From Streptomyces globisporus (GTDB lineage: Bacteria > Actinomycetota > Actinomycetes > Streptomycetales > Streptomycetaceae), in the NCBI GenBank assembly GCA_014649555.1, contig BMTG01000006.1:62001-126000 (forward strand): a stretch of DNA of 64,000 nt, read 5' to 3'. Position numbers and translations under genes: made by a program. Shown here piece after piece: positions 1 through 12,165 of the stretch. Below the pieces are notes generated by a model. It was not told the DNA's origin, did not search any database, and saw only the letters and a program-made list of their open reading frames with translations. Within the stretch, counting starts at the first letter, position 1. Each line of letters opens with the position of its first letter.

Positions 1-321
1 GCCACCGCCCTCTCCGTCCAGTCGCTCTCCCTGCAACTGGTCGCCGCCGGGGCCGGACTGGGCGCGGGCGCCCTGCCCCCGGGCCCGCTGCCCTGGCTGC
101 TGGCCGCCACGGCCGTGCTGGCCGGCGCGCTGCTCTGGGTCAGGCGCGCCGGCCCGCCGAAGGGATTCCCGGATGCCCCGCCCGGCCCGGACGCCGCGGT
201 CCCGGTCCCGCCCCACCACGGCTCCTCGACGGCCGGGGACCCGGTCGTCGCCCCCGTTTCCGCCGGACCGCTCCACGACACCGCACCCGAGGAGATCCAC
301 CCCCATGCTCGACCGATGTGA
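1..321 (+). CDS. MFS transporter, C-terminal end (5' part outside window)
   Basis: Only the last 106 residues are visible; the frame is open from base 1 to the TGA at 319-321. Small-residue-rich hydrophobic stretches (about residues 13-25 and 30-47), with RR immediately after the second, look like the last membrane helices of a 12- or 14-helix drug exporter. A Pro/Ala-rich cytoplasmic tail follows. The 3' end overlaps the start of the PfkB kinase by 17 bases, so the two are probably cotranscribed. Calling it MFS rests on the helix pattern only; another polytopic transporter family is possible. Confidence 0.5.
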   Translation, partial: ATALSVQSLSLQLVAAGAGLGAGALPPGPLPWLLAATAVLAGALLWVRRAGPPKGFPDAPPGPDAAVPVPPHHGSSTAGDPVVAPVSAGPLHDTAPEEIHPHARPM

Positions 322-1237
322 GCCGCTGGTCATCGGCGAATGCGTCGCCGACATCGTCCGGCAGCCGGACCGGCCCGACCGGGTCCACCCCGGCGGCAGC
401 CCCGCGAACGTCGCGTACGGACTGGCCAGGCTCGGCCATCACCCCACTCTGCACACCCAGTTGGGCGCCGACGGCCACGGGCGGCTCATCCGGGACCATC
501 TGACAGCCGCCGGGGTCGAGGTCCGCACCGACGACGCCACCGGGCCGACCTCCTCGGCCGTGGTCACCCTGGACGGCCAGGGGCACGCCACGTACGCCTT
601 CGACGTCGGCTGGACCCTGGGCCCCGTCCCGCTCGGCCGGGCGCCGGGGCATGTGCACACCGGCTCCATCGCGGCCGTCGTCGAACCCGGGGCGGCGACG
701 GTCCTGGCCGCCCTGGAGGCGCTGCGGACCGCTGCCACCGTCAGCTACGACCCCAACGTGCGACCCGAGTTGATGGGCGAGCGCGCCCCGGCCGTGGCCC
801 GCGTCGAGCGCTGCGTCGCGCTGAGCGACGTCGTCAAGGCCAGCGACGAGGACCTGAGGTGGCTGCACCCGGACGAGGAGCCGGAGCGGATCGCCGGGCG
901 ATGGCTCGCCGCCGGACCCGCGCTCGTCCTCGTCACCCGGGGCGAGGCGGGCGCGTTCGCTCTGTTCCCCAGCGGCCGGATCACCGTCGAGGCCCCCACG
1001 GTCGAGGTCGCCGACACCGTCGGCGCGGGCGACGCCTTCATGTCGGGGACCCTCCACGCCCTCGCCGCGCACGGGCTCCTGGGCCCGGACGCCCGGGACC
1101 GGCTGCACGCCGTGGACCGCGACACCGTCGCCGACGTCCTGCGCCACGCGGTCGCCTCCGCCGCCGTGACCGTCTCCCGGCCCGGGGCCAACCCGCCGGG
1201 ACCCGACGAGCTCCGCGAGGCGCTCGGCGTCAACTGA
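305..1237 (+). CDS. PfkB-family sugar kinase (fructokinase-like)
   Basis: The 310-residue product has both PfkB/ribokinase signatures: the N-terminal sugar-binding Gly-Gly-x-x-x-Asn stretch (GGSPANVAYGLARLG, residues 30-44) and the C-terminal DTVGAGDAF box (237-245), in which Asp243 is the expected catalytic base next to the anion hole. The length is normal for fructokinases. The ATG at 305 is preceded by a GAGGAG-type ribosome site and lies inside the end of the transporter gene, suggesting translational coupling. The sugar specificity cannot be read from sequence. Proximity to an exporter and an acyl operon allows either plain carbon metabolism or modification of a product sugar. Confidence 0.85.
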   Translation: MLDRCEPLVIGECVADIVRQPDRPDRVHPGGSPANVAYGLARLGHHPTLHTQLGADGHGRLIRDHLTAAGVEVRTDDATGPTSSAVVTLDGQGHATYAFDVGWTLGPVPLGRAPGHVHTGSIAAVVEPGAATVLAALEALRTAATVSYDPNVRPELMGERAPAVARVERCVALSDVVKASDEDLRWLHPDEEPERIAGRWLAAGPALVLVTRGEAGAFALFPSGRITVEAPTVEVADTVGAGDAFMSGTLHALAAHGLLGPDARDRLHAVDRDTVADVLRHAVASAAVTVSRPGANPPGPDELREALGVN

Positions 1238-1324: not shown

Positions 1325-1360
1325 ATCGGGGCGACGGGTGGCATCGGGGCGACGGGTGGC
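1325..1360 (+). repeat. Perfect 18-bp tandem duplication at the KAS III start
   Basis: The 18-mer at 1325-1342 is repeated exactly at 1343-1360. Each copy carries an in-frame GTG (1338 and 1356), so the duplication creates two alternative start codons for the KAS III gene six codons apart. Neither GTG has a strong Shine-Dalgarno sequence. Confidence 0.9.
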
Positions 1361-2471
1361 GAGGAGACGGGCGGCCGACAGCGGGACGGAGCCGGGGACG
1401 CGGGCGGGCGTCTTAGCGGCCGGCGCGCGCACGGCAGTGCTCCAGGGCGTGGCGGGCTGGGTGCCGGGGGAGCCGGTCGGCAACGAACGGCTCCCCGCCG
1501 ACTGGGGCGTGGACGACGCCTGGGTCCGCCGCCGCACCGGCATCGGCAGCCGGCACCGTGCCGGACCGGGCGTCGCCACCGGCGACCTCGCGTTCGAGGC
1601 GGCCTCCCGGCTGCTGGCCGGCGCCCCGGCGGCGGATCGGGTGGACGCGGTGGTCCTCGCCACCGCCACCCCCGACCACCTCTGCCCCGGCACCGCCCCC
1701 GCACTCGCGGCCCGGCTGGGGCTCGGCACCGTACCGGCGCTGGACATCGCCGCCGTGTGCAGCGGCTTCGTCTACGGACTCGCCGTCTGCCACGGTCTGG
1801 TCACCTCGGGCCTCTACGGGAGGATCCTGCTCGTCGGGGCCGACGTCTACTCGACCTGGCTCGACCCGGCCGACCGTTCGGCGGGCGTCGTCTTCGGTGA
1901 CGGGGCGGGCGCCGCCCTGGTGGCGGCCGGGCGCCGAGGCGATCCCGGGGAACTGCTCGCGTTCGACCTGGGCAGCGACGGTACGGGCTACGACCTGATC
2001 ACCGTCCCCGGCGGCGGGGCCCGTGCGCGGGCGAGCCGGAAGCCGCCGGGCCTGGACGACGGGTTTTTCCGGATGCAGGGCGGCACCGTCTACCAGCACG
2101 CCGTGGAGCGCATGACCGGCTCCTGCCGGACGCTCCTGGACCGGGTCGGCTGGGACCCGGCCGAGGTCGACCGCTTCGTGCCGCACCAGGCCAACGCCCG
2201 GATCCTGCGCGCCGTCGCCGAGCGGGTCGGCATCGCCCCGCAGCGCTGCGTGACCCATCTGGAGCAGGTAGGCAACACCGGCGCCGCCTCCATCCCGCTG
2301 GCCCTGGCCGACGCGGCGGACGACGGGCTTCTCCACCCCGGCGACCGGGTGCTGCTCACCGCCTTCGGGGGCGGACTGACCTGGGGTTCGGCGGCACTTC
2401 GCTGGCCCGGGACCCCGCAGACCATGTGTATGGACTCTATGGAAGGAACACAGCATGTCGCTCCCCGCTGA
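1338..2471 (+). CDS. Beta-ketoacyl-ACP synthase III (FabH-like)
   Basis: Thiolase-fold KAS III of 377 residues with the full Cys-His-Asn triad: Cys141 in AAVCSGF, His283 in VPHQAN and Asn313 in GNTGAAS. It should condense an acyl-CoA primer with malonyl-ACP to start a chain. The start is uncertain: GTG 1338 and GTG 1356 are duplicated starts, and GTG 1437 would begin right before the conserved core (LQGVAGWVPGEP). If translation starts at either upstream GTG, the gene has one TTA leucine codon (1413-1415), the bldA-dependent codon. The 3' end overlaps the next KAS II gene by 17 bases. The gene set matches the primer module of calcium-dependent antibiotic rather than primary fatty acid synthesis. 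Confidence 0.9.
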   Translation: MASGRRVARRRAADSGTEPGTRAGVLAAGARTAVLQGVAGWVPGEPVGNERLPADWGVDDAWVRRRTGIGSRHRAGPGVATGDLAFEAASRLLAGAPAADRVDAVVLATATPDHLCPGTAPALAARLGLGTVPALDIAAVCSGFVYGLAVCHGLVTSGLYGRILLVGADVYSTWLDPADRSAGVVFGDGAGAALVAAGRRGDPGELLAFDLGSDGTGYDLITVPGGGARARASRKPPGLDDGFFRMQGGTVYQHAVERMTGSCRTLLDRVGWDPAEVDRFVPHQANARILRAVAERVGIAPQRCVTHLEQVGNTGAASIPLALADAADDGLLHPGDRVLLTAFGGGLTWGSAALRWPGTPQTMCMDSMEGTQHVAPR

Positions 2472-3711
2472 TCAGGGCACCGAGGCCCGAGCCGGCACCG
2501 CCGTCGCGGTGACGGGGATCGGCCTCGTGACACCCGCAGGGGCGGACGAGCACAGCTTCTGGGAGGGGCTGTGCTCCGGGCGGTCCACCGCCCGGCGGAT
2601 CGAGGAACTCGCGGGCCTGCCGGTCGACTTCGCCTGTCCGGTCGACGGCATCGACCTGGACGCGGCGGTGGGCGGCCGGTCGGTGTGGCGGATGGCCCGG
2701 TTCGTGAAGCTGGCGCTGGTCGCCGCCCGGCAGGCCGTCGCCGACGCCGGCCTCGACCCGGCCCGATGGGACGGCACCCGGGTCGGCGTGGTGCTCGGCG
2801 TGGGCGTCGGCGGCGTCTCCGTACTCGTCGACAACGCGGCCAAGCTGGCCGCCTCGGGCCCCGAGGCGGTCTCCCCGCTCCTCGTGCCGATGATGATCCC
2901 CAACGCGGCGGCGGGCGAGGTCGCCATCGCGCTGAAGGCGGGCGGCCCCAGCCTCGCCCCCGCCACCGCCTGCGCCTCCGGGGCCACGGCCGTCGCCGTC
3001 GCCCGCGATCTGCTGCTCGGCGGCAGCTGCGACGTGGTGGTCGCGGGCGGCGCGGAGTCGGTGCTGACCCCGCTGGTGGTGACCGCGTTCGCCCGGATGG
3101 GCGCGCTGTCCACCCGCACCGGTGAACCGGCCGCCGCCTCACGCCCGTTCGCCGCCGACCGGGACGGCTTCGTCATCGGCGAGGGCGCCGCCATGCTCGT
3201 CCTGGAGCGCGAGGAGGGGGTACGGGCCCGGGGCGGCCGGACGCGCGCCCTGCTCGCCGGGGCCGGCTCCAGCACCGACGCCCACCACCCCACCGCCCCG
3301 GCCCCCGACGGGCACGGCGCCCAGCGGGCGGTGCGGGCGGCGCTCGACCAGGCGGGCTGGGCGCCGGGCGATGTCGACCACATCAACGCCCACGGCACCT
3401 CCACCCCCCTCAACGACGCCATGGAGACCACCCTCATCTCCCGGCTCTTCCCGCACCGGCCGCCGGTCACCGCGCCCAAGGGCGTCACCGGACACACCCT
3501 GGCGGCGGCGGGCGCGATCGAGGCGGTGGCCACCGTCCTGACGCTGGAACGTTCCGCCGTCCCGCCGATCGCCAACCTGGACGCGCTCCCCGACGCTTTC
3601 CCCCTCGACTGTGTGACGAAGGAACCCCGTCTCCGGCGGGTCGAGACGGCGCTCAGTCACTCCTTCGGCTTCGGCGGCCACAACGTCGTACTGGCCTTCC
3701 AACGCGCCTGA
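2455..3711 (+). CDS. Beta-ketoacyl-ACP synthase II (FabF-like), first copy
   Basis: 418-residue KAS II with Cys173 (ACASGA), His313 (NAHGTST) and His347 (TGHTLAAAG), the complete Cys-His-His set, so it should be a condensing enzyme and not a chain-length factor. The ATG at 2455 follows GGAAGGA and sits inside the end of the KAS III gene. It probably elongates the primer made by that enzyme on the stand-alone ACP encoded downstream. It is closely similar in layout to the second KAS II of the operon at 6164-7387, which suggests an old duplication. Confidence 0.93.
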   Translation: MSLPADQGTEARAGTAVAVTGIGLVTPAGADEHSFWEGLCSGRSTARRIEELAGLPVDFACPVDGIDLDAAVGGRSVWRMARFVKLALVAARQAVADAGLDPARWDGTRVGVVLGVGVGGVSVLVDNAAKLAASGPEAVSPLLVPMMIPNAAAGEVAIALKAGGPSLAPATACASGATAVAVARDLLLGGSCDVVVAGGAESVLTPLVVTAFARMGALSTRTGEPAAASRPFAADRDGFVIGEGAAMLVLEREEGVRARGGRTRALLAGAGSSTDAHHPTAPAPDGHGAQRAVRAALDQAGWAPGDVDHINAHGTSTPLNDAMETTLISRLFPHRPPVTAPKGVTGHTLAAAGAIEAVATVLTLERSAVPPIANLDALPDAFPLDCVTKEPRLRRVETALSHSFGFGGHNVVLAFQRA

Positions 3712-3739
3712 TATACGGGGGCATTTCGGGACGGCGGGG

Positions 3740-5797
3740 GTGTCCTCGCCGTTCCTTGATCGTTACTGTGTTGTGACCGTAACCACGAACGACGCGGCCT
3801 CGCCGTCCACGAACGATTTGCTCACCGCAGTGCTCTTCGGGCCGAACTTCCGCCAGGAGCACGGATTCTGGCGCCGCCTGCTGACAACAGAACCGTTTCG
3901 CCGCCCCGGTGGCGGCACCCCCGACGAGCGACTCGCCCTCTCCTACCACCGGCTGCGCATCCTCAACAACGCGCTCGACAGCGGCGCCCGACTGGCCGCC
4001 GATCCCCGGGCGCTGTCCGCCCTCCACGAGTGGCTCGGCCCCGTCGACCCGGCGCTGACCACCGTGGCGGGCATCCACTACAACCTCTTCCTCGGCAGCC
4101 TCCTCGACCACGACGCGGACACCCGGCGTGATCTGTCGGACTTCCTCGCCCTGCGGCGCGTGGGCACCTTCCTCTGTACGGAGGTGGCGCACGGCAACGA
4201 CGCGGCGGCCATCGAGACGACCGCGACGTACGACCGTGAACGCGACGGCTTCGTCCTGCACACCCCGCACGCAGGGGCACAGAAGTTCATGCCCAACACC
4301 AGTCCCGCCGGGGGCCCCAAGTCCGGTGTGGTGGCTGCCCGTCTGTTCGCCGACGGCGCCGACCACGGGGTCTTCCTCTTCCTCGCCCCGCTCACCGACG
4401 CCCACCGCGCCCTGCCCGGCGTCCGGGTGCGGCGGCTGCCCGCCCGGATGGGCTCCCCGGTCGACCACTGCCTGACCTCCTTCGACCGCTGCTTCGTCCC
4501 GCGCGAGGCGCTGCTCGCCGGACAGCAGGGGCGGATCGGCGACGACGGCCGGTTCCACAGCGAAGTCCCCAACCGCAGAAGGCGGTTCCTCACCTCCATC
4601 GGCCGGGTCACCCCCGGCAAGCTCTCCATGAGCGCCTGCGCGGTCGGCTCCGCCCGGGTCACCCTGGCCATCGCCGTCCGGTACGCCGGCCACCGGATGA
4701 TCTCCGGATCGCGCGCCGCCCGGCGGATCCCGGTGTACGCGCACCGCACCCACCACGGCCCGCTGGCCGGAGCGATGGCCACCGTCTACGCGATGAGCCT
4801 GCTGCACCGCAGGGCGCTGGACGGCTGGGAGTCGGCCTCCGGGGCCGACCGGGACGAGGCGGAACGCCTGGTGGCCGTCGCCAAGGGATGGATCACCTGG
4901 CAGGCCCGCGACGTCATCGTCGAATGCCGCGAACGGTGCGGAGCCCAGGGACTGTTGGAGAACAACGGAATGACCGAACTGGTCACCGGCATCGAGGGCG
5001 CGATCACCGCCGAGGGCGACAACCTCGCCGTCCACGCCAAGGCCGCCGCCGAGATGCTCTTCAGCGCCGCCGACCGGGACTCGGCCGACGACGGCGGCCC
5101 CGGCGACCTGGACGACCCGGCCTTCCTCGGTCGGCTGTTCGCCGCCGTCGAGGACCTCTGGTTCGCCCGCGCCCGCACGCGGATGAGCGCCGCCCCGCCC
5201 GGCGACCCGCTCGGCCGCTGGAACGCCGCGTCGTCGGCCGCGCTGCGCGGCGTCGAGGCGTACGCCTGCCGACAGGCGGACGAAGCGTACGCCGAGGCCG
5301 TCGCCACCCTGCCCGAGGGCGCGGCGCGCGAACGGCTCACCGAGCTGCGCAGGCTCTTCGCGCTCCGGTGGATCGCCCGCAACAGCGGCGACCTGCTCGC
5401 CTCCGGACGGCTGACCGCCGATCAGGTCACCTTTCTGCCCGAAGCGGTGGAGGAGGCGACCGTCGTCGTCGCCGAACACACCCCCGCCCTGGTGGAGACC
5501 TTCGCCCTGCCCGAGCGGCTGATGTCGGACTGGCCGATCGCCGGACCCCGGTACGCGGACGTCTACGACGACCCCGAGGGGGCGTGGCACCGGAGTCGCA
5601 GGGCGGGAATCCGGGGGCGAGCGGCGGAGTTCCGGCGGCCCGTCTGCGGCAGCCGGAGGCGCCCGCTGCGCGAAAAGGTCGCGGCGCTCGGCACCCGTGG
5701 GGTCCTTCTGGCGTACTGGGGAACCACATCGGTGCTCTCCCGATGGTTCGAGAAGCCGCAGGTGAGCGTAGATGAATCGGTTCGCCGGAAGGCGTAA
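3740..5797 (+). CDS. Acyl-CoA/acyl-ACP oxidase-like flavoprotein (HxcO-like)
   Basis: 685 residues, the size and layout of acyl-CoA oxidases rather than the roughly 400-residue dehydrogenases: an alpha-helical N-terminal part, a beta domain with the FLCTEVAHGNDAAAIETTATY segment, a MGSPVDHCLTSFDRCFVPREALL-type segment, and the C-terminal CRERCGAQG followed by ITAEGDN that contacts FAD in this family. In the CDA pathway the homologous type of enzyme, HxcO, oxidises hexanoyl-ACP and also epoxidises it. Here the gene sits between KAS II and ACP, so an ACP-bound acyl chain is the likely substrate (inference). The start may be GTG 3740 or GTG 3773. Confidence 0.85.
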   Translation: MSSPFLDRYCVVTVTTNDAASPSTNDLLTAVLFGPNFRQEHGFWRRLLTTEPFRRPGGGTPDERLALSYHRLRILNNALDSGARLAADPRALSALHEWLGPVDPALTTVAGIHYNLFLGSLLDHDADTRRDLSDFLALRRVGTFLCTEVAHGNDAAAIETTATYDRERDGFVLHTPHAGAQKFMPNTSPAGGPKSGVVAARLFADGADHGVFLFLAPLTDAHRALPGVRVRRLPARMGSPVDHCLTSFDRCFVPREALLAGQQGRIGDDGRFHSEVPNRRRRFLTSIGRVTPGKLSMSACAVGSARVTLAIAVRYAGHRMISGSRAARRIPVYAHRTHHGPLAGAMATVYAMSLLHRRALDGWESASGADRDEAERLVAVAKGWITWQARDVIVECRERCGAQGLLENNGMTELVTGIEGAITAEGDNLAVHAKAAAEMLFSAADRDSADDGGPGDLDDPAFLGRLFAAVEDLWFARARTRMSAAPPGDPLGRWNAASSAALRGVEAYACRQADEAYAEAVATLPEGAARERLTELRRLFALRWIARNSGDLLASGRLTADQVTFLPEAVEEATVVVAEHTPALVETFALPERLMSDWPIAGPRYADVYDDPEGAWHRSRRAGIRGRAAEFRRPVCGSRRRPLREKVAALGTRGVLLAYWGTTSVLSRWFEKPQVSVDESVRRKA

Positions 5798-5891
5798 CCG
5801 GAAGATCGTCATCCAGTTATTTCGGAAGGTGGGCAGTACCGGTTCTCCCGCCGCTCGGACGATCTCGACGTACCCGATGAGAGGAATCACC

Positions 5892-6167
5892 ATGAAGACC
5901 ATTCACCCCAAGATCACCGAGGTGCTGACCGGGACGTTCAAGGTGCCCGCCCACGAGGTCCTGCCGGAGTCCACCATGGACAGCCTGGAGATGGACTCCC
6001 TCGCGGTCGCCGAGTTCGCCGTCATCATCAAGGAGACCCTGGGCGTCGACGCCGACTCCGAGAAGCTCTACAAGGACGCCACGCTGGCCGAGATCTCCGC
6101 GTACATCGACGAGGCCGTCGGAAGCGCGGAGGCCGAGGCGACGGTGCCGGTGAGCAACACCCGATGA
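5892..6167 (+). CDS. Stand-alone acyl carrier protein
   Basis: 91-residue acidic four-helix ACP. The phosphopantetheine attachment motif is LEMDSLAVAEF with Ser36 as the modified residue. The ATG at 5892 follows GAGAGGAATC; an upstream in-frame ATG at 5772 would overlap the oxidase gene and has no ACP homology, so it is less likely. The TGA overlaps the ATG of the second KAS II gene (ATGA, 6164-6167), so the two are coupled. It should carry the growing acyl chain made by the flanking KAS enzymes and present it to the oxidase. Confidence 0.93.
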   Translation: MKTIHPKITEVLTGTFKVPAHEVLPESTMDSLEMDSLAVAEFAVIIKETLGVDADSEKLYKDATLAEISAYIDEAVGSAEAEATVPVSNTR

Positions 6168-7387
6168 AACGACCCGCCATCGCCGTGACGGGACTGGGGA
6201 TGATCACCCCGGTCGGCCACACCACCGACACCACCTGGGACGGAGTCCGCGCCGGCGTCTCGCCCGCCCGTACCGTCCCCGAACTGCAAGGCTGCGCCGT
6301 CGACTTCGCCTGTACGGTCTCCGGCATCGACCTCGACGAGGCGGTCGGCGGCCGGTCCGCGTTCCGGATGGGCCGGTACGTCAAGTTCGCCCTCCTGGCC
6401 GCCCGGGAGGCGGTCGCCGACGCCGGGCTCGACCCGGCGCACTGGGACGGGACCCGGGTCGCCGTCGTGGTCGGCACCAGCAGCGGAGGATCCGCCGGAC
6501 TCACCGAACAGGCCGTCGCCCTGGAGCGGCGCGGCCCCGAGGCCACCTCACCCTCGGGCATCCTGCTGACCATCCCGAACATGCCCGCGGCCGAGATCGC
6601 CATCGCGATGAAGGCCACCGGGCCGAGCTTGGCCCCCTGTACCGCCTGCTCGTCCGGGGTGACCGCGCTGTCCGTGGCCCGGGACATGCTCACGCTGGGC
6701 CAGTGCGACATCGCCGTCGCCGGGGCCACCGAGTCGATCGTCTTCCCCGTCGCCATGACCGGCTTCGCCCGCTCCGGCGCCGCGGCACCGCGGGACGGCG
6801 ACCCCGCCCGCCTCTGCCGCCCCTTCGCCGCCGACCGGGCCGGGATCGTCATGGGCGAGGGCGCGGCGATCATGGTCCTGGAGCGGGCCGAGGAGGCCCG
6901 CGCCCGAGGAGCCTCCCCCCGGGCGCTGATCGCGGGCGCCGGGGCCACCACCGACGCCCACCACCCCACCAGCCCGCACCCTTCGGGCGAGGTCGCGCGG
7001 GCGGCCGTCGACGCCGCGCTGCGCGACGCGGGCTGGCGGGCCGAGGACGTCGACCACGTCAACGCGCACGGCACGTCGACTCCGCAGGGCGACGCCACCG
7101 AAGCCGCCCTCATCGGCCGGGCCTACCCGCACCGGCCGCCCGTCACCGCCCCCAAGGGCGTACTGGGCCACTGCATGGGGGCGGCGGGCGCCATCGAGGC
7201 GGGCCTGACGATCCTCACGCTCCAGCACGGGGTGATCCCGCCGATCGCGAACCTGGACGCCCCCGAGCCCGGGTTCGCCATCGACTGTGTCACCAAGACC
7301 CCGCGCGAGGTGCCCGTACGACGGGCCGTCAGCCACTCCTTCGGCTTCGGCGGCCAGAACGCGGTGATCGCCCTCCAGGCTCCGTAG
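6164..7387 (+). CDS. Beta-ketoacyl-ACP synthase II (FabF-like), second copy
   Basis: 407-residue KAS II with Cys162 (CTACSSG), His302 (NAHGTST) and His336 (LGHCMGAAG), hence catalytically complete. It starts four bases before the ACP stop. The active-site surroundings differ from the first KAS II (Ser-Ser after the Cys instead of Ala-Ser, and Cys-Met instead of Thr-Leu after His336), which suggests a different chain length or substrate. It is the last gene of the operon and is followed by a hairpin at 7413-7447. The CDA cluster has one fabF in this position; the second copy is the main difference. Confidence 0.93.
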   Translation: MKRPAIAVTGLGMITPVGHTTDTTWDGVRAGVSPARTVPELQGCAVDFACTVSGIDLDEAVGGRSAFRMGRYVKFALLAAREAVADAGLDPAHWDGTRVAVVVGTSSGGSAGLTEQAVALERRGPEATSPSGILLTIPNMPAAEIAIAMKATGPSLAPCTACSSGVTALSVARDMLTLGQCDIAVAGATESIVFPVAMTGFARSGAAAPRDGDPARLCRPFAADRAGIVMGEGAAIMVLERAEEARARGASPRALIAGAGATTDAHHPTSPHPSGEVARAAVDAALRDAGWRAEDVDHVNAHGTSTPQGDATEAALIGRAYPHRPPVTAPKGVLGHCMGAAGAIEAGLTILTLQHGVIPPIANLDAPEPGFAIDCVTKTPREVPVRRAVSHSFGFGGQNAVIALQAP

Positions 7388-7412
7388 GGGCTGCCCGAGC
7401 GGAATCCGCACA

Positions 7413-7447
7413 GCCGGTACGGCGGGCCGACCCCGCGCCGTACCGGC
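7413..7447 (+). terminator. Hairpin after the acyl operon
   Basis: An 11-bp perfect inverted repeat (gccggtacggc, 7413-7423, with its complement at 7437-7447) and a 13-nt loop, 26 bases after the last KAS II stop. It has no T-run, as is common for streptomycete terminators. Confidence 0.55.
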
Positions 7448-7571
7448 ACCGCGGACGTGACCCACCGGACGGCGCCCGAGCTGCGAGAAGACGTCCGGGC
7501 TGACGGACCGCGCCGGGCCGCCCCCGGTACGTTTCCTGCCGCGTCGCTGACGGCGAAAGACGCCGGACAGC

Positions 7572-8937: not shown

Positions 8938-9660
8938 GTGGCGGCCGCAGGGCGGACCACCGCCGACCCGCCGAGCCACCAGGGGTGCGCCATCTCTTCC
9001 GTACGTCTCGGGCTGCCCGCGCAACGCGGCGAACTGCGCGACCGGCGCGAGGACGGGCACCACCTCCACCACCTCGTGTGGCGGCTGGGGCCGGGCGTGC
9101 GGGTGTGCAGCAGCGCAGTCCTCGGCGGGGGCATCGGCCCCCGGGCCTGGATCCTCAACGCCCAGGTCCCCGGCGGCTACCCGCGCCTCGACCCGGACCG
9201 TCACCTCGCCGAGATCGCCGCGGCGGAAGGGCTCACGGGCCCGGGTGCCGGGCTGATGACCGCCGCCGAGGTCGCCGCGCACACGACCGCCCAGGACGGC
9301 GGCGTCACGGCGACCGTCACGGCAGGCCTCGGCGTACGGGGCTGGGCGGCGGCCCCCGAAGACGACCGGGCGCCCTTGTTCCGCCCCGGCACGGTCAACA
9401 TCGTCGTCACGTTGCCCGTGGCGCTCTCCGACGCCGCCCTCGTCAACGCCGTCGCCACCGCCACCGAGGCGAAGGTCCAGGCCCTCCTGGACGCCGGACT
9501 CGACTGCTCGGGCACCCCGACCGACGCCGTGTGCGTCGCCGCACCCGCACCGGGGGCCGACGGCGGCGAACCCTTCGCCGGGCCCCGCTCGACCTGGGGT
9601 GCGCGGATCGCCCGCGCCGTGCACACGGCCGTACTGGCCGGAGCCCGCCCGACCGCGTGA
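8938..9660 (+). CDS. cbiZ: Adenosylcobinamide amidohydrolase (CbiZ-like)
   Basis: 240 residues starting at GTG 8938. Family hallmarks are WRLGPGVRVCSSAVLGGG at about 48-66, WILNAQVPGGYPR, GAGLMTAA, and a C-terminal LPVALSDAALVNAVATATEAK segment followed by CSGTPTDAVCVA. CbiZ removes the aminopropanol side chain of adenosylcobinamide to give adenosylcobyric acid, the salvage route that bypasses CobU. No other cobalamin gene is adjacent, so it acts as a single-gene salvage function. The first 20 or so residues are poorly conserved and a start somewhat downstream is possible. Confidence 0.8.
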   Translation: MAAAGRTTADPPSHQGCAISSVRLGLPAQRGELRDRREDGHHLHHLVWRLGPGVRVCSSAVLGGGIGPRAWILNAQVPGGYPRLDPDRHLAEIAAAEGLTGPGAGLMTAAEVAAHTTAQDGGVTATVTAGLGVRGWAAAPEDDRAPLFRPGTVNIVVTLPVALSDAALVNAVATATEAKVQALLDAGLDCSGTPTDAVCVAAPAPGADGGEPFAGPRSTWGARIARAVHTAVLAGARPTA

Positions 9661-9693
9661 CGGGGCCCGGCCCACCACCAGGGGTGCCGGGGT

Positions 9694-10947
9694 TCAGGTC
9701 ACCGTCACCGGGTGCCGCACCACCGCGTCGAACAGATAGCCCTGGGTGTTGTGCGCGGTGGCCACCGGCTGCCTGCGCCCCGAACGGTCCGTCGCCCGGG
9801 CCAGCAGCACGGCGGGCCCCCGCTCCCTCGGCACCCAGTCGGCCGTCCACCGCACCCAGCTCCCGGCCCGCGGCTCGTCCCGCAGCCGGGCCGCCCGCCA
9901 GCGCGCACCCCCGTCGGTGCTGACCTCCACGGTCCGTACGGGCGCCCCGCCCGACCACGAACGCCCGGTCAGCAGCGCACGCCGGTGAGCGGGGAAAGCG
10001 GCCCCCGGGGCCAGCTCGAAGGCGCTCTTCAGCGACTGCCGGGTCAGCGGCGGGCTGCCCTCCGGCGGATGCCCGGGGCCGAACAGCCGGTAAAGGCCCG
10101 TGTTCCACGGGGTGAGCAGCGGCTCTGCGCTCACCTCGATGTCGCCGACCCACTTGATGTTGGCGATACCCACCCACGACGGCACGATCAGCCGGACCGG
10201 ATAGCCGTGGTCGGGCGGCAGCGGCTCGCCGTTCATCTCGTACGCGAGCAGGACGTCTTCCAGCGCCTTGGCCACCGGCAGCGGACGGCGCACCCGGCCC
10301 AGGTTCACCCCGTCGGTGACCACCTCGGCGTCCAGGCCGCGCGGCAGCACGTCCACCGCGTGCCGCCCGATTCCGGCCCGGCGCAGCACGTCCGCCAGCC
10401 GCACCCCGCGCCAGCGCGCCGTGCCGATCGCCCCGAGCGTCCACGTGGTGCCGCTGACCGCCTGGCCCTGCTGCGAGGTGAAGTAGCTGCGGCCGTTGCC
10501 CGCGCACTCCACGAACGCGGTACGGGTCACCTGCGGCAGGGCCAGCAGATCCGCGAACGTGAAGTCGACCGGACCGCCGCGCAGCCCGTCGCCCCACACC
10601 GTCAGCTTCCAGCCGGCCCGGTCGATGCGCGGGGTGGCGGTGTGGTTGCGGACGAAGAACCGGTCGGCGGGGGTGAGGAGCCCGGTGCCGCGCAGGGCGG
10701 CGAAGTTCGTCTCCGCGTTGGTGCCGCGCAGCGTGAACAGCTCCGGCGGCAGCGGCTTGACCACGCCGGGCAGCCCGTCCGCCGCGCGGGCCGGAGCGGC
10801 GACCGAGGCCAGCGGCACGGCGGCGGAGGCCGCCGCCATGAGTTTCAGCAGATCGCGGCGGTCGATCCCGGCGGAACGCGCGCGGCCGCGGGACCACTGC
10901 CGCATCCGTATCCGGTCGTAGGCATCCTCGGTCGGAACCGGGCTCAT
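9694..10947 (-). CDS. TAT-exported molybdopterin oxidoreductase, sulfite-oxidase fold
   Basis: 417 residues. N-terminal RRDLLKLMAAASAA (about 30-43) is a twin-arginine signal followed by an AxA cleavage region (APARAAD). The sulfite-oxidase molybdopterin domain follows, with Cys148 in VECAGNGRS as the molybdenum ligand, HGYPVRLIVPSWVGIANIKWV, and a C-terminal Ig-like dimerisation domain. There is no haem or membrane anchor, so electrons must leave to a separate carrier. The substrate (sulfite or another oxo-acceptor) is not determinable. It ends 33 bases from the convergent CbiZ gene. Confidence 0.9.
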   Translation of the reverse strand: MSPVPTEDAYDRIRMRQWSRGRARSAGIDRRDLLKLMAAASAAVPLASVAAPARAADGLPGVVKPLPPELFTLRGTNAETNFAALRGTGLLTPADRFFVRNHTATPRIDRAGWKLTVWGDGLRGGPVDFTFADLLALPQVTRTAFVECAGNGRSYFTSQQGQAVSGTTWTLGAIGTARWRGVRLADVLRRAGIGRHAVDVLPRGLDAEVVTDGVNLGRVRRPLPVAKALEDVLLAYEMNGEPLPPDHGYPVRLIVPSWVGIANIKWVGDIEVSAEPLLTPWNTGLYRLFGPGHPPEGSPPLTRQSLKSAFELAPGAAFPAHRRALLTGRSWSGGAPVRTVEVSTDGGARWRAARLRDEPRAGSWVRWTADWVPRERGPAVLLARATDRSGRRQPVATAHNTQGYLFDAVVRHPVTVT

Positions 10948-10968
10948 GGAAACTCCTCGTGGGTCAGG

Positions 10969-12165
10969 TCAGGGTGATGTGGGGCTGGGGACGGGGGTGC
11001 GGGCGGTACGAGGCTGCGGGAGCAACTCCCGTACGAGCGCGCCCACCTGCTCCGTCTCGATGAGGAAGCCGTCGTGCCCGTACGGCGAGGCGATGGTGTG
11101 CGCGGCGTCCGCCCCCGGCAGCAGCGCGGCCAGGCGTTCCTGCTGCGTCAGCGGGTACAGCCGGTCCGATTCGACGCCCGCGACCAGGGCGGGCAGCTCC
11201 GCGCGGGCCAGGGCGCGGGCGATCCCGCCCCGGCCCCGCCCGACGTCGTGGCCGTTCATCGCCTCGGTGAGCGTCACGTAGCTCCCGGCGTCGAACCGGC
11301 GCACCAGCTTGTCCGCGTGGTGGTCGAGATAGGACTCCACCCGGTAGCGGCCGCCGTGCGCGGGCTCCTCCCCGGGCTGTGCCTCGCCGCCGAAGCGGGA
11401 GTCCAGCTCGGGCGCGCTCCGGTACGTGATGTGGGCGATGCGGCGCGCCTGCCCGAGGCCCCGGTGCGGGCCCTCGCCCGGCGGCGCCCCGTGGTAGTCG
11501 CCGCCCCGCCACCCCGGGTCGGAGCGGATCGCGCCGATCTGCACCGAACCCCAGGCGATCTGGTCGGCGGAGGCGGCCGCCGGGGCGGCGAGCACGAGCA
11601 GCGAGCCGGTGCGTTCGGGCCTGCTCACCGCCCATTCCAGGGCCCGCATGCCGCCCATAGACCCGCCGATGACGGCCGCCCACCGGTCGATGCCCAGCAC
11701 ATCGGCGAGGGCCGCCTCCGCCGTCACCTGGTCCCGCACGCTCAGATACGGGAACAGCGAACCCCACGGCGTGCCGTCGGGCCCGGGGGAGGAGGGGCCG
11801 GTACTGCCCTGGCAGCCGCCCAGGACGTTGGGGGCGACGACGAACCAGCGGTCGGTGTCGAGCGCCCGGCCCGGACCGACCAGTGCGTCCCACCAGCCGG
11901 GCGTCGGATGCCCCGGACCGGCGGGACCGGCCACATGGCTGTCGCCCGTCAGTGCGTGCAGCACCAGCACGGCGTTGGACCCGTCCTCCGCCCGCCGCCC
12001 CCAGGTCTCGTACGTCAGGCGCACCCCCGGCAGCCTGATCCCGGACTCCAGGGGCAGCGGGTCCTCGATCGCCGCCCAGCGGCGACGACCGGGCGGATCC
12101 CCCTCCCGCCGGCCACCGGAGGCCGGCGGGAGGGGGAGTGCGCGGTGCGGGTCCTTCCGGTTCAG
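10969..12165 (-). CDS. metX: Homoserine O-acetyltransferase MetX (probable CTG start)
   Basis: Alpha/beta-hydrolase acyltransferase making O-acetylhomoserine. It has HALTGDSH, VLGGCQGSTGPSS, the nucleophile elbow GGSMGGM (Ser169 counted from the CTG) and C-terminal GHDGFL with the catalytic His. Coding similarity clearly begins upstream of the only canonical start (GTG 12024): the frame encodes REGDPPGRRRW and PLPLESG, typical of MetX N-termini, with no ATG, GTG or TTG. The CTG at 12165-12163 overlaps the metY TGA as CTGA and lies about 9 bases after GAAGG, so a coupled CTG start is proposed. A 17-bp hairpin (12098-12137) lies inside this N-terminal coding stretch. Confidence 0.75.
   Translation of the reverse strand: MNRKDPHRALPLPPASGGRREGDPPGRRRWAAIEDPLPLESGIRLPGVRLTYETWGRRAEDGSNAVLVLHALTGDSHVAGPAGPGHPTPGWWDALVGPGRALDTDRWFVVAPNVLGGCQGSTGPSSPGPDGTPWGSLFPYLSVRDQVTAEAALADVLGIDRWAAVIGGSMGGMRALEWAVSRPERTGSLLVLAAPAAASADQIAWGSVQIGAIRSDPGWRGGDYHGAPPGEGPHRGLGQARRIAHITYRSAPELDSRFGGEAQPGEEPAHGGRYRVESYLDHHADKLVRRFDAGSYVTLTEAMNGHDVGRGRGGIARALARAELPALVAGVESDRLYPLTQQERLAALLPGADAAHTIASPYGHDGFLIETEQVGALVRELLPQPRTARTPVPSPTSP
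12098..12137 (-). terminator. Strong hairpin between metY and the metX core
   Basis: A 17-bp perfect stem (arms 12098-12114 and 12121-12137) with a 6-nt loop. It resembles a terminator following metY but lies within the reading frame that encodes the conserved MetX N-terminus. It may act as an attenuator or an RNA-stability element that sets the metX:metY ratio. Confidence 0.55.

Follow-up and report, generated by a model that had tools for sequence, protein, structure and literature searches.

The five-gene operon

A stretch of 64,000 nucleotides of Streptomyces globisporus (NCBI GenBank assembly GCA_014649555.1, contig BMTG01000006.1, C6:62001-126000 of the 8.2-Mb genome), hereafter the window and numbered from its first base, carries an operon of five forward-strand genes, and the close relatives of the genome are Streptomyces. 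The genes encode, in order, a β-ketoacyl-acyl carrier protein synthase III (KAS III), a first KAS II (KAS IIa), a flavoenzyme of the acyl-CoA oxidase (ACOX) type, a stand-alone acyl carrier protein (ACP) and a second KAS II (KAS IIb). Judging from sequence comparison, the operon joins condensing enzymes like those of the calcium-dependent antibiotic (CDA) lipid starter with an avenolide-type oxidase.

The FabH-type KAS III gene (1338..2471, + strand) matches PF08541 (9e-35) and PF08545 (1e-24), and its product keeps the catalytic Cys-His-Asn, with the Cys in VCSGFVYG, the His in VPHQAN and the Asn in VGNTGAAS. Codon 26 of this frame (1338-2471) is a TTA and the FabH-aligned part begins later, at residue 31, so that the gene would come under bldA control only with a translation start at 1338. 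The FabF-type KAS IIa gene (2455..3711, +) matches PF00109 (3.5e-53). The oxidase gene (3740..5797, +), whose product belongs to the Aco (avenolide) clade, has the ACOX C-alpha domains PF22924 (3e-14) and PF01756 (1e-7) above cut-off, and the best PDB matches of the protein are solved acyl-CoA oxidases (best E 7e-31). The ACP gene (5892..6167, +) matches PF00550 (7e-11), with the presumed phosphopantetheine Ser in EMDSLAVAE (the DSL serine), and the KAS IIb gene (6164..7387, +), also FabF-type, matches PF00109 (1e-46). The five genes named in a preliminary description of the window are therefore present at the places given there, with NCBIfam concurring on the KAS III and KAS II types, weakly on the ACP, and holding no model for the oxidase. 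All five are real and intact. Gene calls were made with a script based on GC content by codon position, which mis-called some antisense frames.

The preliminary description also had the genes packed with overlaps. This is correct for KAS III and KAS IIa, which overlap by 17 bases, and for the ACP and KAS IIb genes, which overlap by 4, while KAS IIa and the oxidase are 28 bases apart. The ACP frame is open from 5772, and an ATG at 5892 is preceded by the ribosome-binding site GAGAGG; the start is most likely this ATG and not 5772, in which case the ACP gene would not overlap the oxidase gene.

Affinities of the oxidase

The oxidase is 48-56% identical to the Aco-type rows (the S. avermitilis Aco itself lies outside the sequence set) and 27% identical to HxcO of the CDA locus (L245). 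Operon and Aco-type oxidases form one clade that excludes HxcO (SH-aLRT 100), and a grouping of HxcO, a very long branch, with the operon oxidases was rejected by the approximately unbiased (AU) test (p 0.0007). At the presumed catalytic-base position, Glu is found in 24/24 operon, 5/5 oxidase-only and 22/22 Aco-type rows as well as in the window (Glu425), whereas the alignment places Gly there in HxcO and in 17/17 oxidases of the L116-type operons described below. On the basis of structure work, we take the Glu425 column to be the catalytic base of acyl-CoA oxidases. Because the Glu is kept in operon and Aco oxidases and replaced by Gly in HxcO, plain α,β-desaturation would be a better prediction than HxcO-like desaturation with epoxidation. 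For HxcO itself, a passage of PMC9136287 proposes desaturation plus epoxidation. The preliminary description had likened the oxidase to HxcO, a reading that the identity, the tree, the AU test and the Glu/Gly difference contradict. It had also named clustering with catabolic enzymes as the outcome that would count against its view; a catabolic oxidase was ruled out, operon and Aco oxidases standing on their own branch with support of 100.

Of the 152 oxidase rows collected, 124 were eligible, rows shorter than 500 aa or with stops and the duplicate loci L123-L151 being excluded, and after thinning of 34 near-copies 90 rows entered the oxidase tree. A second oxidase tree left out four long rows (L172, L173, L180 and L183) and added HxcO. 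All trees were quick searches with SH-aLRT support only. The loci were assigned to groups manually, according to their gene context, and L118, L119 and L102 were labelled Aco-type although no adjacent pair of cytochrome P450 (P450) and receptor was found there.

Among the matches listed, best first, the oxidase relatives fall into three identity tiers, about 60-100% (the operon family), 44-59% and below 40%. Identity of at least 60% was seen in 38 of 392 sampled genomes, counted over the listed rows and including the genome studied here and the oxidase-only genomes. The ratio of nonsynonymous to synonymous substitution rates (dN/dS) of the oxidase is 0.18-0.38, and 0.18-0.28 for the oxidase-only loci (three pairs); three values with dN near 2 were ignored as frame misalignments. 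Since the oxidase-only genes are under purifying selection and nest within the operon clade, they suggest loci that lost the KAS and ACP genes and kept the oxidase for other acyl donors. The last ~70 residues of the oxidase (window 5588-5797) are matched in the closest relatives, and matches in other relatives, for example several at 61-72% identity, end near residue 617. Genome G213 has two partial oxidase matches (46-58% identity) near opposite chromosome ends, at C1:293834-294849 and C1:7608535-7608963. The S. globisporus genome holds a second oxidase of the Aco clade on another contig (L118, C11:101000-120000, at 9403-11196 of the locus), neighboured by genes for an AMP-ligase, a PaaX regulator, an acyl-CoA dehydrogenase and an FMN oxidoreductase, with no TetR or P450 gene among the six neighbours scanned.

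The operon oxidase shares with the avenolide locus aco-avaR1-cyp17 of S. avermitilis and its homologues the clade, the Glu, an EGDN motif and the expected α,β-desaturation. Passages of PMC5575351 and PMC5744401 describe aco, avaR1 and cyp17 as clustered together, and passages of these two and of PMC7347384 describe Aco enzymes as required for avenolide or butenolides. A table of butenolide loci in PMC7347384 names S. cellostaticus, S. bungoensis, S. griseoaurantiacus and RV15; our set shares these species or strains (L101, L107, L106 and L113, respectively) by name only. Of the 18 Aco-type loci of the 44-59% tier with flanks, 17 carry a P450 gene together with a receptor-like TetR gene in the stretch covered, and the regulator of two plasmid relatives bears the annotation ScbR-family autoregulator-binding factor, which agrees with the clustering described in those papers. 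Palindromes resembling the autoregulatory element (ARE), with at most one mismatch to the consensus, lie upstream of 13/18 Aco-type oxidases and in 0/57 controls, which were mononucleotide shuffles; three of these came from the operon locus L093, which is not among the 13/18.

The CDA locus was reached via genome G284, which has a 100% identical actinorhodin ketosynthase. There, nonribosomal peptide synthetase (NRPS) frames of 7469, 3680 and 3959 aa are some 18-57 kb distant from successive ACP, KAS II, oxidase, KAS III and monooxygenase-like genes, the last of which has an FAD-monooxygenase-like N-terminus, judged by reading without a family search. This run matches the CDA genes, and we take it to be them. 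TauD-type genes were dropped as a path to the locus, their motifs being read as a different subgroup, and weak oxidase matches followed toward HxcO led to other oxidase operons and not to HxcO. Compared with the CDA locus, the KAS III of the window operon is 51% identical, KAS IIa 48%, KAS IIb 45% and the ACP 33%. Thus, the CDA-like starter operon of the preliminary description holds as to its condensing enzymes and ACP: like the CDA genes fabH4, fabF3, hxcO and ACP (with hcmO), the operon combines FabH4/FabF3-like condensing enzymes with a stand-alone ACP and similar activities. It fails for the oxidase, which is off the HxcO branch and whose base position is occupied by Glu, not Gly, and the operon further differs by its extra KAS II, the lack of hcmO in the operon and of a nearby NRPS, and its gene order.

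Two other operon types of Streptomyces likewise place an oxidase beside KAS III, ACP and KAS II genes, but their oxidases are 24-34% identical to that of the window operon and they have a single KAS II. One, seen at 7046-14870 of L116 and in its kin L115, L152-L161 and L164-L166, runs acyltransferase, oxidase, KAS III, an unassigned gene, KAS III, ACP and KAS II (the acyltransferase was identified in L116 only), and differs by the acyltransferase, the two KAS III genes and the Gly at the base position. The other (5092-12623 of L221, L224 and L225-L226) runs KAS III, ACP, KAS II, oxidase, 4HBT thioesterase, FAH hydrolase and carboxyltransferase, differing in these last three genes, for which Pfam was run in L221 only; it is a further lipid operon, possibly with its own release enzyme. 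In L173 (9647-17493; pSTRVI02 of S. violaceusniger), a KAS III, an AfsA-type hotdog protein, an oxidase, two short-chain dehydrogenases/reductases (SDRs), an ACP and a KAS II stand in a row, and this set of AfsA, oxidase and ketosynthase may be a hybrid signal pathway. ACOX-like genes also occur in or beside loci with polyketide synthase (PKS) or hybrid NRPS motifs (L168-L171, L176-L178, L185 and L190).

The KAS II pair and the genomic setting

In the KAS II tree (79 of 147 rows), the 19 KAS IIa rows and the 19 KAS IIb rows form two clades that are each other's sister, with a joint support of 99 (SH-aLRT), and CDA FabF3 is sister to both (SH-aLRT 92, long branch). Because of these two sister clades, KAS IIb is an old duplicate of KAS IIa, the pair having arisen via one duplication in an operon ancestor and been kept in parallel since. 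Both KAS IIs of the window have the Cys-His-Lys-His-Phe set. Across the alignment, the share of rows that retain the catalytic residues (Cys, His, His, Lys and the gate Phe) is 98-100% for KAS IIa and 96-98% for KAS IIb, with 98% for the active-site Cys of KAS IIb. Both enzymes are under purifying selection, with dN/dS of 0.08-0.21 in five pairs; values elsewhere were 0.27 to 0.72 for the ACP and 0.31 to 0.47 for the PfkB-family kinase encoded upstream.

Two adjacent paralogous ketosynthases co-inherited with an ACP recall the type II pairs of KS-alpha and chain-length factor. However, unlike in those pairs, both operon KAS IIs keep the active-site Cys and two His, and their place in the tree is among FabF3-type enzymes and away from the actinorhodin ketosynthase. 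A dead chain-length factor was therefore excluded for KAS IIb, since its Cys and other catalytic residues are kept. The two KAS IIs are separated by 21 fixed differences, of which 12 fall within reference columns 104-109 and 127-142; these columns were picked after the data had been seen, and the hypergeometric value is descriptive only. From FabF structures, we assume that these columns line the acyl pocket and the dimer interface, and because of this placement it is probable that the two enzymes bind different chains or that they pair as a heterodimer.

In all, 50 operon loci were collected, 40 with full and 10 with short flanks. Among the 67 loci whose flanks are complete, 40 have the whole trio of KAS IIa, ACP and KAS IIb, 27 (12 oxidase-only and 15 Aco-type) have no member of it, and no locus has only part, while KAS III is optional, being present in 25/40 of the loci that bear the trio. 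The trio occurs in 0/18 Aco loci. The preliminary description had left a second, catalytically complete KAS II unexplained. Its presence and completeness were confirmed, and the pattern answers the question in part: KAS IIb is a catalytically complete partner, inherited together with KAS IIa.

The identical five-gene order occurs at three chromosomal sites. At the first, that of the griseus group, the operon lies beside PfkB and PRC/CbiZ genes; at the second, beside an M28 peptidase gene and a terpene synthase gene, probably for geosmin synthase; and at the third, between MFS and Rsm22 genes. In the window, the PfkB-family kinase gene (173..1237, +) is a neighbour belonging to this chromosomal site; PfkB also adjoins 10/12 oxidase-only loci and was not seen at the two other operon sites. 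The MFS transporter gene, of which the window has the 3' end (1..321, +), begins 1157 bases left of it, and the MFS genes of two sites have no BLASTP similarity. Accordingly, neither gene was retained as core, and their inclusion in a cluster by the preliminary description seems to reduce to local context. A shared SDR ketoreductase was also rejected, the SDR of the L083-type loci being only ~32% identical to that of the terpene-synthase site. Because the MFS genes are dissimilar and the SDRs only ~32% identical, the operon core is all that the sites have in common, and no tailoring gene common to them was found. Right after the operon, a stable hairpin region (7388..7470, +; -43.7 kcal/mol for 83 nt, given without a shuffle control), which lacks a T run, is a possible transcript end. 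Many griseus-group loci, although not the window, are ~3 kb longer between KAS IIb and the PRC-barrel gene (14016-17061 in L035), the insert holding a periplasmic binding protein in L035 and a FecCD-type permease in L062.

The preliminary description suggested that the operon may be the edge of a lipopeptide or free-lipid cluster, to be sought to the left, and counted NRPS, ketoreductase and dehydratase genes as absent from the window. The absence of NRPS genes is confirmed, the nearest condensation domain being at C6:132292, beyond the window and ~63 kb right of the operon. SDR-family stretches do occur in it, one at 21.7-22.3 kb, which is 14 kb from the operon, and one at 37.3-38.2 kb, at a distance of 30 kb. 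Left of the window, a Pfam scan of predicted genes back to ~21 kb gave no NRPS or PKS, the genes there encoding ArsR- and PadR-type regulators, SnoaL, a binding protein, BrkB, LacI and an alpha-1,3-glucanase; further left on the contig, own-genome searches gave no ketosynthase or condensation-domain match, the two operon KAS IIs being the only ketosynthase matches on this contig. An NRPS just left of the window was thus discarded. In flanks of up to 10 kb, frames of more than 900 residues with NRPS/PKS consensus motifs were found in 0/50 operon and 0/12 oxidase-only loci, compared with 3/18 Aco-type loci and both positive controls (L190 and L185). A lipopeptide cluster edge is therefore not borne out in the own genome or in relatives, which keep the operon with no biosynthetic partner within these flanks, the second outcome that the preliminary description had named as counting against its view.

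Proposed pathway and alternative explanations

Whether these genes form a stand-alone acyl-ACP pathway for a free small lipid, plausibly butenolide-like, instead of a local lipopeptide tail, we regard as an evenly balanced question, and it is the reading that we adopt. Because the oxidase resembles that of avenolide and not that of CDA, the product is probably a small lipid and not the tail of a peptide antibiotic. In favour of the pathway are the Aco kinship and the conserved Glu of the oxidase, the all-or-none trio, the KAS II duplication with its clustered fixed differences, the purifying selection, the gene order shared by three sites and the flanks free of NRPS/PKS frames. We infer the substrates, the KAS II pairing, the order of steps and the nature of the product as follows. 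KAS III would condense a short acyl-CoA with malonyl-ACP, and lineages that lack KAS III would draw the acyl-ACP from the general fatty acid synthase. KAS IIa and KAS IIb, an obligate pair and probably a heterodimer with two active subunits, would then extend the chain on the operon's own ACP, and primary metabolism would lend the enzymes for ketoreduction, dehydration and enoyl reduction. With Glu425 as base, the oxidase would abstract the α,β hydrogen pair and O2 would accept the electrons, so that a trans-2-enoyl thioester forms and no epoxide. Release or lactonisation might take place in trans, by enzymes encoded elsewhere, and yield a free 2-enoyl or butenolide-like lipid. Use of the product as starter for a distant synthetase is less likely.

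Several observations weigh against this pathway. No thioesterase, lactonising enzyme or acceptor is found in the operon, which leaves release unexplained, and 12 loci retain the oxidase without KAS or ACP, so that the oxidase there is independent of this ACP. The kinship with FabF3 and FabH4 also leaves room for an acyl-starter role, and the relatives' flanks reach at most 10 kb, less in some. The pocket reading of the two divergent KAS II stretches and the role given to the Glu come from structure work. Furthermore, in a search of each whole locus with the receptors and P450s of three Aco loci as queries, a receptor-like gene was found in 0/50 operon and 0/12 oxidase-only loci and a P450 of the Aco-locus type in 2/50 and 0/12, respectively. 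ARE-like sites with at most one mismatch were found in 2/45 operon upstream regions (700 bases before the first KAS match), both with the same GC-rich sequence, which is chance level. None occurs in the window, and the best match upstream of the operon in its own genome, including ~1.9 kb left of the window, has 3 mismatches. AvaR-type control of the operon was therefore rejected, there being no receptor-like gene in operon loci and ARE-like sites only at chance level.

The last counts bear equally on an unlikely but substantial alternative, in which the operon is an avenolide-like autoregulator pathway that makes a butenolide hormone, with the P450 and an ScbR/AvaR1-type receptor elsewhere in the genome. 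Among characterised proteins, Aco enzymes are the nearest kin of the oxidase, and they are needed for avenolide and butenolides according to the passages cited above (PMC5575351, PMC5744401, PMC7347384), and butenolide 4 was abolished when the S. albus aco orthologue was deleted, as a passage of PMC5575351 states. In addition, L055 (17121-17993) and L090 (~18.8-20.0 kb) have, ~5 kb downstream of KAS IIb, P450s that are 46-47% identical to those of Aco loci and might be butenolide partners; these are the sole observation among the operon loci that leans toward butenolide. However, receptor, P450 and ARE-like sites, each so frequent in Aco loci, are missing or rare in operon loci, which differ from the avenolide locus in carrying KAS IIa, ACP, KAS IIb and often KAS III, none of the Aco loci has the trio, and the genome already possesses another oxidase of this clade, on contig C11.

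An acyl starter for a lipopeptide or hybrid product, with the NRPS acting in trans from elsewhere in the genome, seems less probable. It would agree with the CDA-like KAS III, KAS II and ACP, with FabF3 as sister of the KAS II pair and with the 30 condensation-domain matches in the genome, but the oxidase is not HxcO-like and no NRPS/PKS frame was found in the flanks covered of the 50 operon loci at their three sites. Moreover, the nearest NRPS, 63 kb away, is a frame of 3706 aa with four condensation-type matches, at a spacing near that of a 3665-aa frame in a coelicolor-type genome, which we take to be the coelichelin siderophore synthetase. It is more doubtful again that KAS IIb serves as an acyl-transfer or release enzyme passing the finished chain to an acceptor. 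The operon does lack another release enzyme, 12 of the 21 fixed differences are confined to two short stretches, and the NCBIfam acyltransferase-subunit model AmcF picks up both KAS IIs, at scores below its cut-off; yet plain FabF models outscore AmcF by far and the condensation residues persist in 96-98% of KAS IIb rows. Least probable, and a slim chance at best, is a role in which the operon supplies or remodels fatty acids for membranes or storage and nothing is secreted, for which the fatty-acid-synthase-type enzymes and the lack of a shared tailoring gene could be cited. Against it stand the restriction of oxidases of at least 60% identity to 38/392 sampled genomes (listed rows), the recurrence of the gene set at three sites and the place of the oxidase in a signalling clade.

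Open-access text searches, which covered part of the matching literature, gave no papers on such an operon. Returning to the free-lipid pathway, the operon would be a conserved and apparently undescribed small-lipid pathway that unites the chemistries of the CDA lipid starter and the avenolide hormone. A bolder and rather unlikely extension is that up to roughly one in ten Streptomyces species make a hormone-like lipid by an ACP-bound route, in which an avenolide-type oxidase recruited from a hormone locus and a FabF heterodimer with two live sites would produce butenolide-like or 2-enoyl signals whose receptor is not linked to the operon. A free lipid as product would represent a new class of Streptomyces metabolite or signal, and in the KAS II pair nature provides a test case for the division of work between two fully active FabF copies.

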